Source: Natronococcus sp. AD-5 (lineage in GTDB: Archaea; Halobacteriota; Halobacteria; Halobacteriales; Natrialbaceae). Taken from it: a stretch of 64,000 nucleotides of DNA. Both the position numbers and the translations under genes were made by a program. Below the pieces are notes generated by a model. It ran no database searches and had not been told where the DNA came from. It saw only the letters and a program-made list of their open reading frames with translations. Where the stretch lies: contig NZ_CP132294.1 in assembly GCF_030734285.1 (NCBI RefSeq), positions 2,356,001-2,420,000 on the forward strand, written 5' to 3'. Positions 8,740 to 12,655 of this stretch are shown in pieces; position 1 is the stretch's first letter, and the number at the start of each line of letters is the position of its first letter.

Positions 8740-9059
8740 TCGGGGTGCATCAGCTCGACTAATTCGGATGCACTCAGTCGATTGAGCCGACGTTACGTAG
8801 GTATGCGAACTTACCGTGATTATGGATCGTGTCGACGGTGGGCCAGTGGTGTAGTATCAACCATCACGAATATGCGCGTTGTTAACTCATAACTATTTCT
8901 AGATATCGGTGTCTGCAAAGCTAAATAGGTGTATTCGTAGAATTCTCACGAGCCAAGTCCTATCCGATTCGCCACGGGGCTGAACCTGCCTTTCAAGGAG
9001 TGAAATATTTCACGAGGTATTTACATGCCTCTCGGGTGCGTAGCGGACACCGAGGAGTC
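8740..9059. other. 320-bp intergenic region at the left edge of the accessory block
   Basis: No gene is supported. GC falls sharply here (for example ACTATTTCTAGATATCGG around 8890) compared with flanking genes. AT-rich segments around 9002-9025 could hold the promoter of the oxidase. This drop marks the boundary between the thiamine operon and the 9-12.7 kb block. Confidence 0.5.
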
Positions 9060-10526
9060 ATGACCCAGACGACCATCGCCACACGCGACGGCCCACCGAC
9101 CACGATGACCCAGGAGACCGTCGAGGCGTTTCGACAGCGTCTGCGCGGACCATTGCTCTCCTCGGAGGACGACGGCTTCGAAGAGGCCGTGCGCCTCTGG
9201 AACGGAATGATCGAGAAGACGCCGGCGCTCGTCGCCCAGCCAGAGACTACCGACGACGTCGTCACCTGCGTCGACTTCGCCCGGGAGCACGGCCTCCTCT
9301 TTGGCATCCGCGGCGGCGGCCACAACATCGCCGGGACGGCGCTGGCCGATGGCGGCCTGACGCTGGACATGTCCCGGATGAATAACGTCGAGGTAGACCC
9401 GGATGCGCGCACCGTGACGGCGGGCCCCGGTTGCGTGCTGGCCGACGTGGACGCCGCAACCCAGAAACACGGCCTGGCCACGGTGCTCGGGTTCGTCTCC
9501 GAGACGGGCCTGGCCGGCCTAGTGCTTGGCGGCGGTTTCGGCTACCTCTCGCGGCGCTTCGGATGGGCCGTGGACAACCTCGTGGAGGTCGAGATCGTCA
9601 CCGCCGACGGTGAGATCCGCCGCGCCAGTGCCGACGAGCACGACGACCTGTTTTGGGCCCTCCGCGGTGCCGGCCACAACATGGGCGTCGTGACCGAGTT
9701 TATCTTCCGCCTGCATGAGGTCGGCCCGGAGATCACCGGCGGCCTGTTGGCCTTCCCGGCGGAAACGTCCGACCAAGTCGACGCCGCGTTGGAAGCCTAC
9801 CGAGCCGTGACCGAGGCGGCGCCGCGCGAGCTGAGCGTGTTCACCCTCTTCCAGCGCGCGCCGCCGGCGCCCTTCGTGCCGGAGGAGTGGCACGGTCGGC
9901 GGATCGCCGGCTTCCTCGTCTGCCACACCGGGCCGCCCGAACGGGCCGAAAAGGACCTGACACCGCTGAGGGAGCCGCTGGGCGAGCCCGTCGTCGACCT
10001 TATCGGGCGGCGGCCCTACGTCGAACAACAGCAGTTGACCGATGACAGCCAGCCCAAGGGGATGCACTACTACTGGAAGGCCGTCTGGACCGACGGCCTT
10101 GACGATGGCCTCCTTGACGCGGTTGGCGACCTCTTCCTGAACCTTCCCTCGCCGATGACGAAGCTCGGCTTCGTCCACGTTGGCGGGGCGCTCAACGAGC
10201 GGGCCACGGACGACGGCGTCGTCGGCAACCGGGACTTCCAGTACGGTCTCGGCATCCTCGGCATGTGGGACCCCGACGACCCCAACGGCGACGCGCACCG
10301 GGCCTGGGTCCGCGAGGCGTGGAAGCGGTGCCGGCCGTTCTCCACCGGCCGCCACTACGTCAACTTCGAGACCGCCGACGAGCCGCTCGACCGCACCAAG
10401 ACCGCTTACCTCGACAACTACGACCGCCTGGTCGAGGTCAAGACGAAGTACGACCCAGAGAACCTCTTCCGGACGAACCGGAACGTGAGTCCGAACTCGG
10501 AAGCGAGAGCTCGTAAGACGGAGTGA
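9060..10526 (+). CDS. FAD-linked oxidase, berberine-bridge-enzyme type
   Basis: 488 residues from the ATG at 9060 (MTQTTIATRDGPPTT). The FAD-binding PCMH domain shows RGGGHNIAG (about residue 87), where the His is the usual 8-alpha flavin attachment site, and GLVLGGGFGYLSRRFG. The C-terminal BBE segment is seen in NYDRLVEVKTKYDPENLF near the end. The second, cysteinyl flavin link of bicovalent members is absent because the expected CPTVG-like stretch reads SETGLAGL. Its substrate is unknown; relatives oxidise sugars or secondary metabolites. An in-frame upstream ATG at 9000 exists but would overlap probable promoter sequence. Codon choice (more GCC, GGC, CTG) differs slightly from core genes. 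Confidence 0.85.
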   Translation: MTQTTIATRDGPPTTMTQETVEAFRQRLRGPLLSSEDDGFEEAVRLWNGMIEKTPALVAQPETTDDVVTCVDFAREHGLLFGIRGGGHNIAGTALADGGLTLDMSRMNNVEVDPDARTVTAGPGCVLADVDAATQKHGLATVLGFVSETGLAGLVLGGGFGYLSRRFGWAVDNLVEVEIVTADGEIRRASADEHDDLFWALRGAGHNMGVVTEFIFRLHEVGPEITGGLLAFPAETSDQVDAALEAYRAVTEAAPRELSVFTLFQRAPPAPFVPEEWHGRRIAGFLVCHTGPPERAEKDLTPLREPLGEPVVDLIGRRPYVEQQQLTDDSQPKGMHYYWKAVWTDGLDDGLLDAVGDLFLNLPSPMTKLGFVHVGGALNERATDDGVVGNRDFQYGLGILGMWDPDDPNGDAHRAWVREAWKRCRPFSTGRHYVNFETADEPLDRTKTAYLDNYDRLVEVKTKYDPENLFRTNRNVSPNSEARARKTE

Positions 10527-10901: not shown

Positions 10902-11864
10902 TTACCCGCTTCGTTCCATAGAAACGACTTCCATCTGGTCATCGAACGTGAGGCTGAGTTCGTCGTCTTCCTGTGGGATCATCATCCGGATTCGAAGCGG
11001 GTTCTCCGAAAGAAGTTCTTTCTCGACATCGAGGAGGAGGGTGAATTGTTCGTACGTCGCGAGGTCGAACTCGATGCCGTGCTCGTAATAAAACGCCGTC
11101 ACCGCCGGTTCTCTCGTCAGATAATGCGATATCGGCATCCACCAGCGGTACTTACACTGCTCACAAATGTGCGACACGCCCATCCAGAAGATCGACCCGC
11201 AGTTCTCACAGAACTGGTACTCATCCCAGTCGGGCTGGTGGTTATCGCAGATATTGATCGAGGTGATGGGCATGTTACCCGCACACTCTGGACAGACGCC
11301 ATCCATGATGGAGGCCCGACGATGAGCACGCCAGATCCGGTCCGCGTCGCTGATCTCGTTCGGGGTCCGGTCCCGCAGTCCCGACGGAGGGAACTCGGTC
11401 ATGCTGAGTACCCCCGGCGGAAAACTAGGGGCACACCGTGCGTCACAGTTGGTGCATTCTACGTAGCGCCACCCATCCCGGTAGCTGTACAGCGGCTGGC
11501 CGCCGCAATACGGACACGACCCGTCGATCTCGACCGGCTCGATCTCTGGATCGTCGAGGGCGGTTCCTGACAGGATCATGCGGACGATTCGTTTACCCGA
11601 TTCCCTGAGTTCATAGCCCTCCTCGCTGTGACTGACGAAGTGGTCCGTGAGCTTATCGAGGTGATAGTGGATCTGGCCGGGGTCATCGGCGCTTACTCGC
11701 TCGCGGAGATCGGCGAACCGCACTGGTTCCGGATTTTCTGGGTCGTGCGCCACCCATAGGGCCTGCAATAACTCGAGGCGCGTTTCGTCCGACAGAAGTT
11801 TGAACGCCTCGTTTTTGGCGGCAGTATCCGGTTGGACCGAATCGTTCGCGGTCGATTCATCCAT
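10902..11864 (-). CDS. ArsR-like winged-helix regulator with zinc ribbons (DUF7347/DUF7351 type)
   Basis: 320 residues. The N-terminus is an ArsR-type winged helix (NEAFKLLSDETRLELLQALW, then VRFADLRERVSADDPGQIHYHLDKL). The middle and C-terminus carry several Cys pairs: CPYCGG, CTNCDARC, CPECAG, CENCG and CEQCKYRW. These suggest at least two zinc ribbons, followed by an acidic C-terminal domain. This architecture is common in haloarchaeal regulators and its ligands are unknown. It faces away from the SnoaL-like gene with operator-like repeats between them. Start ATG at 11864; two TATTGCCA repeats lie just upstream. Confidence 0.8.
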   Translation of the reverse strand: MDESTANDSVQPDTAAKNEAFKLLSDETRLELLQALWVAHDPENPEPVRFADLRERVSADDPGQIHYHLDKLTDHFVSHSEEGYELRESGKRIVRMILSGTALDDPEIEPVEIDGSCPYCGGQPLYSYRDGWRYVECTNCDARCAPSFPPGVLSMTEFPPSGLRDRTPNEISDADRIWRAHRRASIMDGVCPECAGNMPITSINICDNHQPDWDEYQFCENCGSIFWMGVSHICEQCKYRWWMPISHYLTREPAVTAFYYEHGIEFDLATYEQFTLLLDVEKELLSENPLRIRMMIPQEDDELSLTFDDQMEVVSMERSG

Positions 11865-11870
11865 ACCGGA

Positions 11871-11907
11871 TATTGCCAGCCACCGCCAAAAATCTTGGTT
11901 ATTGCCA
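11871..11907. promoter_or_regulatory. Pair of TATTGCCA repeats upstream of the ArsR-like regulator
   Basis: TATTGCCA occurs at 11871-11878 and again at 11900-11907, 29 bp apart, and the second sits in TTGGTTATTGCCAA. They lie 7 and 36 bp upstream of the start codon, a position suited to autoregulation. Confidence 0.3.
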
Positions 11908-11982: not shown

Positions 11983-12056
11983 ATTGAAGGCTCGTTCAAT
12001 TAGAATTGCGATTGAAGGCTCGTTCTATTGAAATTCCGATTGAATTGTCGTTCAAA
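11983..12056. promoter_or_regulatory. Three operator-like inverted repeats at exact 28-bp spacing
   Basis: ATTGAA-N6-TTCAAT-type half-site pairs occur at 11983-12000 (perfect), 12011-12028 (TTCTAT on the right) and 12039-12056 (TTCAAA on the right). The starts are exactly 28 bp apart. They end directly against the AT-rich box that should drive the SnoaL-like gene. The form resembles TetR-family operators; the cognate regulator is not identified. Confidence 0.6.
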
Positions 12057-12067
12057 TAATATTTATG
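12057..12067 (+). promoter_or_regulatory. TATA-like box upstream of the SnoaL-like gene
   Basis: TAATATTTATG abuts the third operator-like repeat. Transcription would start near 12085-12090, giving a leader of roughly 125 nt to the chosen start at 12215. Confidence 0.4.
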
Positions 12068-12214
12068 CCGCGATCCGTCGTAAGGGTTGTTGAGGATTGA
12101 CCATGAGGTGTATGGAGGCGCCTGTTGTCCCCGACCAAGTCCGCGATAACCGAGGGGTCACCGATCGGGTACTTGGTAAACTGGTCGATCTTTCGACCCC
12201 CGAGGAGAGGACAT

Positions 12215-12655
12215 ATGCCAGAGACACAAGACCAAGCCGAAAACAAGGAGATCGCCCGTAAATACCCGGAAGAGGTCATTAGCGAGGGCAACCTGGACCT
12301 CATCGATGAAATTATTGCAGACGACTACGTCGAGCACAATTCTGCAGCGCCCGAGCCCCTTCGCGGCCCGGATGAAGTCAAAGAATACGTCTCGATGCTT
12401 CAAACCGGGTTTCCGGACATCCATTGCGGGGTTGAGGACCTGATCGCCGAAGGCGATATGGTGGTCCGACGAGACCGGGCCACCGGCACCCACGAAGGCG
12501 AGTTCATGGGCATCGAACCGACAGGGAAGGAGGCCGTGGTAGAGGGAAACCATATCCACCGGATCGAAGACGGACAGATCGTCGAGTCTTGGGCCCAAAA
12601 CGACGTAATGGGCCTCATGCAGCAACTCGGCCTCGTCGAACCGCCCGGAGAATAA
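12215..12655 (+). CDS. SnoaL-like / ester-cyclase-family protein
   Basis: 146 residues from the ATG at 12215 (MPETQDQAENKEIARKYPEE). It reads as a SnoaL-like NTF2-fold domain: VISEGNLDLIDEIIADDYVE, a GPDEVKEYVSMLQTGFPDIH helix-turn, AEGDMVVRRDRATGTHEGEF and the ending HRIEDGQIVESWAQNDVMGL. Family members catalyse polyketide ring closures or are orphan enzymes in stress-inducible operons; nothing here fixes the substrate. GAGGAG lies upstream as a possible Shine-Dalgarno. An earlier in-frame extension to 12125 exists but lacks family character. Confidence 0.85.
   Translation: MPETQDQAENKEIARKYPEEVISEGNLDLIDEIIADDYVEHNSAAPEPLRGPDEVKEYVSMLQTGFPDIHCGVEDLIAEGDMVVRRDRATGTHEGEFMGIEPTGKEAVVEGNHIHRIEDGQIVESWAQNDVMGLMQQLGLVEPPGE

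Follow-up and report, generated by a model that had tools for sequence, protein, structure and literature searches.

Organization of the locus

The window, the whole 64,000-nucleotide stretch of Natronococcus sp. AD-5 DNA that we analyzed, contains an array of three 18-bp palindromes between two divergent genes (Table 1). One gene codes for a 320-residue candidate regulator and is transcribed away from the array; the other codes for a SnoaL-like protein and follows the array at the end of a long leader. The start-to-start distances between the palindromes are 28 and 28 bp exactly, and the proximal site runs straight into the BRE/TATA-like element AAATAATATTTAT, of which TTAT occupies positions 12063-12066. 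A sequence-only reading of this DNA had described three ATTGAA-N6-TTCAAT-type repeats with a 28-bp period abutting a TATA-like box, and our analysis confirms both their coordinates and their spacing. The sequence GGCTCG, reported between the arms of two copies, indeed fills two of the three spacers. The same reading placed regularly spaced operators before a SnoaL gene; this also stands, as the gene belongs to PF07366 and the spacing is strictly conserved in relatives. The window also contains, at 9000-10526, a gene convergent with that of the regulator; it codes for an FAD-binding protein whose C-terminal domain is of the berberine-bridge type.

Table 1. Features of the divergent locus, in window coordinates
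Feature	Position	Strand	Remarks
Candidate cognate regulator, 320 aa	10902..11864	-	DUF7347 winged helix and cysteine-rich DUF7351 (Pfam)
Recognition helix region, codons 61-73, DDPGQIHYHLDKL	11646..11684	-	helix 62-72 in the structure model
TTTTTG, possibly the TATA-like box of the regulator promoter	11887..11892	-	28 nt before ATG, far from the array; putative, read by eye
Operator site 1 (distal, extra third copy)	11983..12000	+	ATTGAA-GGCTCG-TTCAAT, arms 6/6
Operator site 2	12011..12028	+	ATTGAA-GGCTCG-TTCTAT, arms 5/6; counterpart at equal distance in 21/21 clade loci
Operator site 3 (promoter-proximal)	12039..12056	+	ATTGAA-TTGTCG-TTCAAA, arms 5/6
BRE/TATA-like element AAATAATATTTAT	12054..12066	+	box score 7/7; spaced from the proximal site as it is in relatives
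5' leader of the SnoaL gene	12067..12214	+	kept in 9 loci; two nested helices can form
Target gene, single-domain SnoaL-like protein	12215..12655	+	PF07366, 133.7 bits; ATG at 12215 checked

In 100 rounds of shuffling the bases of the 450-bp flank, the two-site match was never reached, so the array in the window is not a chance occurrence. A single-site scan of both strands of the 5.17-Mb host genome at ≤2 mismatches gave 40 matches, most of them in unrelated places; because single sites thus carry no information, we turned to the two-site pattern. A scan for a site together with its box addressed the possibility of a dispersed repeat, which the sequence-only reading had named as a refuting outcome. 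A site with its box occurs without a mismatch at two places only—the window and a second cassette at C1:1580199—and the next-best matches carry 3 mismatches, which shows that the array is not a dispersed repeat.

The neighboring regulator

The divergent neighbor combines an N-terminal DUF7347 domain (PF24038, 98.3 bits against a cut-off of 27.6) with a C-terminal DUF7351 domain (PF24042, 131.7 bits against 31.2), and its gene adjoins the 28-bp palindrome array and box, a feature of the family that we propose here and that lies outside the Pfam definition. The HTH_20 profile (PF12840) stays below its cut-off of 27 in the window protein, at 22.6 bits; two of four scanned relatives lie above the cut-off (29.8 and 30.6) and two below (19.6 and 24.3). 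The structure model of the regulator is of moderate quality (mean pLDDT 67). A sequence search of the PDB with the clade profile found no solved structure of a relative at E ≤ 0.1, and a fold search with the model gave no match at E ≤ 0.001: topoisomerase I and Rio2 lead the list, winged-helix regulators rank after them, and the weak matches include CggR, MntR, HucR and MarR-type domains. The DUF7351-type domain contains invariant cysteine pairs at positions 117/120, 137/140, 191/194, 219/222 and 234/237, and this cysteine-rich domain may bind zinc or sense a signal. In relatives, the TATA-like element before the regulator was likewise read by eye. A search of viral contigs with two peptides produced 50 pattern matches, of which none is a relative.

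Linkage of array and regulator in the close clade

We define the close clade as the 21 members found at ≥51% identity, the window gene included. The two-site pattern (≤3 mismatches) matches in 11 of 125 genomes of the same taxonomic family, and nine of these 11 possess a close DUF7351 relative (≥65% identity) with the array alongside; the pattern matches of the other two (G055 and G078) carry 3 mismatches and come without a close regulator relative. The array was first seen by the pattern search in 10 of the 21 clade members. The other 11 genes were found through protein search, not through the operator, and thus constitute an out-of-sample test of the linkage. In 20 of the 21 members the array lies ≤450 bp 5' of the gene at ≤1 mismatch, and in the 21st it is located 622 bp from the gene. 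The segment from the sites to the box shows no indel in the 21 loci; the distance from the array to the regulator start ranges from 108 to 622 bp. Two clade members, from Haladaptatus (G256) and Haloprofundus (G207), are plasmid-borne.

The sequence-only reading had placed the regulator outside the window. Instead, linkage in 21 of 21 clade loci makes the divergent neighbor by far the best candidate. SnoaL orthologues from two genomes that have no close regulator relative, G008 (82% identity) and G040 (70%), are not preceded by an array. By eye, the regions upstream of these two genes (L036 and L040) have a stretch in common, GCATATT.AGC..., perhaps reflecting a different control.

Recurrence in the wider family

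A looser pattern matches in 44 of 392 genomes of the order. We fetched 33 of the 34 places outside the clade, leaving out C2:1281932 of G078. A DUF7351-like gene lies within ~3 kb at 24 of the 33 (within 210 bp at 23), and in 21 of these 24 places the array is found 3' of the gene and in the same direction. The nine places without a DUF7351-like gene also show no box by eye.

More distant homologues give a view of the frame in a set picked blind to the flanks. We took 92 homologues (30-42% identity) from part of a protein-search list; they are mutually related, so the counts that follow are not independent. The exact pair GAAN6TTC-N16-GAAN6TTC, with a period of 28, occurs within 700 bp 3' of the gene in 26 of the 92, and among the other periods between 16 and 44 only 33 yields any, at one locus. 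Relaxing the match to ≤1 mismatch raises period 28 to 37 loci versus at most five at any other period, and ≤2 mismatches to 44 versus up to 16. The 5' flanks of the same homologues yield 0, 0 and 2 pairs at zero, ≤1 and ≤2 mismatches, respectively. For 48 of the 92, no pair at ≤2 mismatches is present within 700 bp 3' of the gene. A motif-free dyad test of the downstream flank displays a weak peak at 28, with 20 loci at ≥10/12 versus 4-12 at other periods.

A smaller set behaves differently. An upstream control of 29 distant homologues found no array at ≤5 mismatches in 450 bp; its best match, in L090, has 6 mismatches in 20 positions and was reached by none of 100 shuffles. This control is misleading, because the arrays of the wider family lie downstream. 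When the whole locus was tested in the same 29, which are the fetched homologues nearest the clade, there was a single exact period-28 pair (L094), and period 27 outnumbers period 28 by 5 versus 1 loci at ≤1 mismatch and 16 versus 6 at ≤2. The excess at 27 may be caused by coding periodicity, since genes are included in the whole-locus test. Taken alone, this set gives no support for the 28-bp frame; the case was settled by the larger set of 92, where only flanks were considered.

In the 125-genome set, 64 genomes contain the exact pair, at 105 places in all, and the reversed pattern occurs at 2. When 30 exact-pair places were sampled, one per genome, 19 adjoined a family gene and 11 did not. 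One exact array (L271, G001 C1:680518), with a box of 5/7, has no DUF7351-like gene within 1.5 kb and is a possible trans target.

The outer bases of the arms vary and tend to remain complementary. In counts from 87 arrays uncorrected for kinship, complementary bases are found at -1/+1 of site 1 in 61 (shuffled mean 35.7, maximum 51), at -2/+2 of site 1 in 67 (35.3, 45) and at -2/+2 of site 2 in 74 (39.6, 51); likewise uncorrected, -1/+1 of site 2 reaches 51, equal to the highest shuffle (51). Arm position 3 is not above chance at site 1 (58 of 87, shuffled mean 59.5) and never complementary at site 2. In kinship-aware covariation over the wider family, each comparison retains at most four supported pairs among the results listed, which is too few for a test. 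Among these listed results, changes the same way versus the other way amount to 2.8/0 for site 1 -1/+1, 1.1/0 for site 1 -2/+2, 1.1/0.7 for site 2 -2/+2, and 1.2/1.0 for site 1 versus site 2 at -2.

Promoter layout and leader

We collected 91 distinct arrays, in which the box matches at ≥5/7 positions in 78 and at 7/7 in 48; the score used to pick these arrays favors the box, and the box counts are hence partly selected, whereas the start-codon test is not. In 50 of 55 same-direction loci with a box an open start codon is found 26-37 nt after the box, compared with 1-23 loci in ten other 12-nt windows. Read from sequence, a start codon at this distance is a putative leaderless promoter layout.

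The form in the window is unusual in its three sites, divergent order and long leader. At the third position, the core GAAN6TTC is complete (6/6) in two of the 91 arrays, both from the host genome and the window among them, and reaches 5/6 in two further arrays; the control frequency of ≥5 is 0.26%. The long leader at 12067-12214 is itself unusual beside the leaderless layout in the wider family. Pairing in its two helices is kept (95.8% of cells pair), with covariation not above shuffles. As for a leader peptide, the reading frame is not kept across all nine leader loci.

Correspondence between recognition helix and operator

Two helix types are found in the clade, each with its own operator. 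All nine loci with the helix Q[IV]HYHLD (within DPGQ[IV]HYHLDKL) have ATTGAA at both sites and TTCAAA before the box, and all 12 loci with RLNYHL[NK] (within DPGRLNYHL[NK]) have ATAGAA...TTCTAA at the proximal site; in three of these 12 the distal site is one letter off (TTAGAA, ATAGGA or ATATAA). The difference between the helices falls in the predicted recognition helix, residues 62-72 of the structure model. The regulator of G207 (51% identity) has the second helix and the second operator but a SnoaL target, which indicates that the operator tracks the helix and not the target. The ATTGAA loci form one clade (97/96), and the switch of helix and operator is a single event on the tree.

Target genes and other cassettes

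Several kinds of target follow the same frame in the clade; one example of each type was scanned with Pfam, and the remaining loci were assigned by visual inspection. The targets include a SnoaL protein with two domains (the one in the window has a single domain), the SnoaL protein of G207, DUF1059 followed by a methyltransferase with an Rv2258c-like winged domain, and a different methyltransferase in G072 and G075. DUF1059 is annotated in Haladaptatus too. On the Haladaptatus plasmid (L135) the regulator is situated between DUF1059 plus methyltransferase and an annotated ester cyclase, as if two target types had met. By eye, the SnoaL gene of the window seems to be a truncated version of a two-domain gene: the first residues correspond to the beginning of domain 1 in relatives, the remainder to domain 2. 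In the wider family, scanning one example each identified an MFS-type permease, an SCO4226-like protein and a cupin as targets, together with two kinds without a Pfam match, one of them seemingly a small membrane protein.

Three DUF7351 genes were found in the host genome, all with an array, in one case at one mismatch. The second cassette (C1:1580212-1580279) comprises a DUF7351 paralogue, DUF1059 and a methyltransferase, and likewise has a third site at 28 bp. The third paralogue, at C1:3033442 (L131), has the one-mismatch array, of a different operator variant, 3' of the gene and ahead of a reading frame resembling a small membrane protein. One extra exact pair, at C2:399219, is without a box and looks accidental from its sequence.

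Interpretation of the array

The linkage, the conserved spacing and the helix correspondence make it very probable that the array is the operator of the adjacent DUF7347-DUF7351 regulator, located inside the promoter of the SnoaL-like gene. Each 18-bp palindrome would bind one winged-helix dimer, and neighboring dimers, 28 bp apart, would touch across the gap; cooperative binding is plausible given the fixed spacing. Because 28 bp does not correspond to an integral number of helical turns, neighboring dimers would face different sides of the DNA. With a transcription start assumed ~30 nt downstream of the box's first T, the proximal palindrome would cover about -54 to -37, at the BRE, and the other two would lie 28 and 56 bp further upstream. 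The proximal dimer would then end beside the BRE of the target promoter and meet TFB/TBP, so that the regulator could control TBP/TFB recruitment on some signal, perhaps read by the cysteine-rich domain. A third site would raise occupancy.

Provided that the array is an operator, activation is the sign that we moderately favor, on account of position and strict spacing. Many regulators encoded beside a single target are repressors. A repressor whose proximal dimer blocks access of TFB/TBP until a signal releases it would also agree with a site adjoining the BRE/TATA-like box, and we regard this sign as possible if rather doubtful. It has a parallel in CsmR of Haloferax volcanii, whose semi-palindromic site adjoins a TATA box and whose targets go up on deletion, according to the consulted text (PMC13286277). 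In the window, however, the palindrome stops at the BRE and leaves the TATA box uncovered, and the second site is kept at a fixed 28 bp, with a fixed box offset and no indel in the 21 loci. Fixed spacing together with a fixed offset would suggest contact with the initiation complex rather than simple blocking.

That the inverted repeats instead terminate transcription of the regulator gene or act as RNA elements of it could be argued from the wider family: in most relatives they sit just 3' of the regulator, and 67 of the 91 arrays have its direction, at a median distance of 67 nt from its frame. Several observations make this highly improbable: the arrays of the window clade are 5' and divergent, the AT-rich sites show by eye neither a T run nor a strong stem, in 50 of 55 loci the array is followed by a box and, at leaderless distance, by a start codon, and the outer arm bases vary over the family yet tend to remain complementary.

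The sequence-only reading had called the operators TetR-like, and palindromic operators of the 18-bp class are common for TetR proteins. The host genome does encode three TetR_N (PF00440) matches, but none is in the window and no such protein is linked to the sites; the linked regulator is of the winged-helix type. Binding by an unlinked TetR-type regulator would leave unexplained why the array accompanies the adjacent winged-helix clade in 21 of 21 loci from several families, and we give it very little credence. A functionless local tandem duplication, or a piece of a dispersed repeat, is extremely unlikely: copy 2 shares 86% identity with copy 1 over 28 nt (copy 3, 71%) and the third site, found in few relatives, may be a recent extra copy, but the exact 28-bp site pair is kept in all 21 clade loci despite diverged spacers, and mismatch-free box-linked copies are confined to two cassettes of the host genome.

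Comparison with known systems

The operator reading invites comparison with several described systems. Denitrification promoters of Haloferax contain a CGAA-N4-TTCG palindrome of the CGAACATGTTCG type, and changing the motif lowers the activity of some of them (PMC10062603, text consulted). Like the sites described here, it is a haloarchaeal promoter palindrome with GAA and TTC arms, but in the consulted text it has an N4 spacer, one site per promoter and a variable distance to the start codon, whereas the array has N6 and at least two sites at 28 bp, fixed relative to the box. The window sites are not of the CGAA-N4-TTCG kind, their GAA-TTC spacer being 6 and not 4. NarO is a regulator of the bacterioopsin-activator type (PMC11218638, text consulted); a Pfam match to that helix-turn-helix class is absent from the window regulator, and the consulted text shows no link between the denitrification motif and NarO. 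CsmR binds a semi-palindromic TATCA-N4-TGATA beside an archaeal TATA box, with 65 binding peaks in the consulted text (PMC13286277). Its position next to the box resembles that of the window array; sequence and spacer differ, and the main text of the paper makes no mention of zinc, ArsR or DUF. BusR, a bacterial repressor of a GntR subfamily, recognizes two sites 22 bp apart as a single bipartite operator, using a tetrameric coiled coil as a ruler and responding to c-di-AMP, as described in the consulted text (PMC8517857). The fixed distance between two sites is common to BusR and the window array, but the window regulator has no GntR-type Pfam match. ArsR-like winged-helix regulators share the fold class of the DNA-binding domain, although HTH_20 matches are weak in the DUF7351 family and below cut-off in the window protein.

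As far as the consulted texts go, neither the denitrification motif nor CsmR nor BusR has the N6 spacer, the 28-bp frame or a protein of the DUF7351 family. Our literature searches found DUF7351 and DUF7347 in none of 5.39 million papers, and topic searches returned nothing on the family, with subscription journals thinly covered. To judge from the sequences, the array is a probable geometry-locked operator-promoter of an apparently undescribed haloarchaeal regulator family. A broader proposal, which we hold tentatively and with confidence just short of even, is that the DUF7347-DUF7351 proteins form a large haloarchaeal family, many of whose members would read a rigid 28-bp, BRE/TATA-fixed frame as a tetramer-like ruler. 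The helix and the outer operator bases would diversify within this frame and targets would be exchanged, giving several mutually orthogonal cassettes per genome (here three, with three operator types).

An uncharacterized regulator family thereby gains a candidate operator, a promoter architecture and testable targets. Fixed spacing and box offset combined with changing specificity make it a good system for studying the contact of archaeal regulators with TBP and TFB, and the fixed frame with shifting specificity would be useful for helix-operator coevolution and for orthogonal switches in halophiles. If the ruler reading is true, a single genome would hold a natural set of insulated archaeal switches, ready for use.
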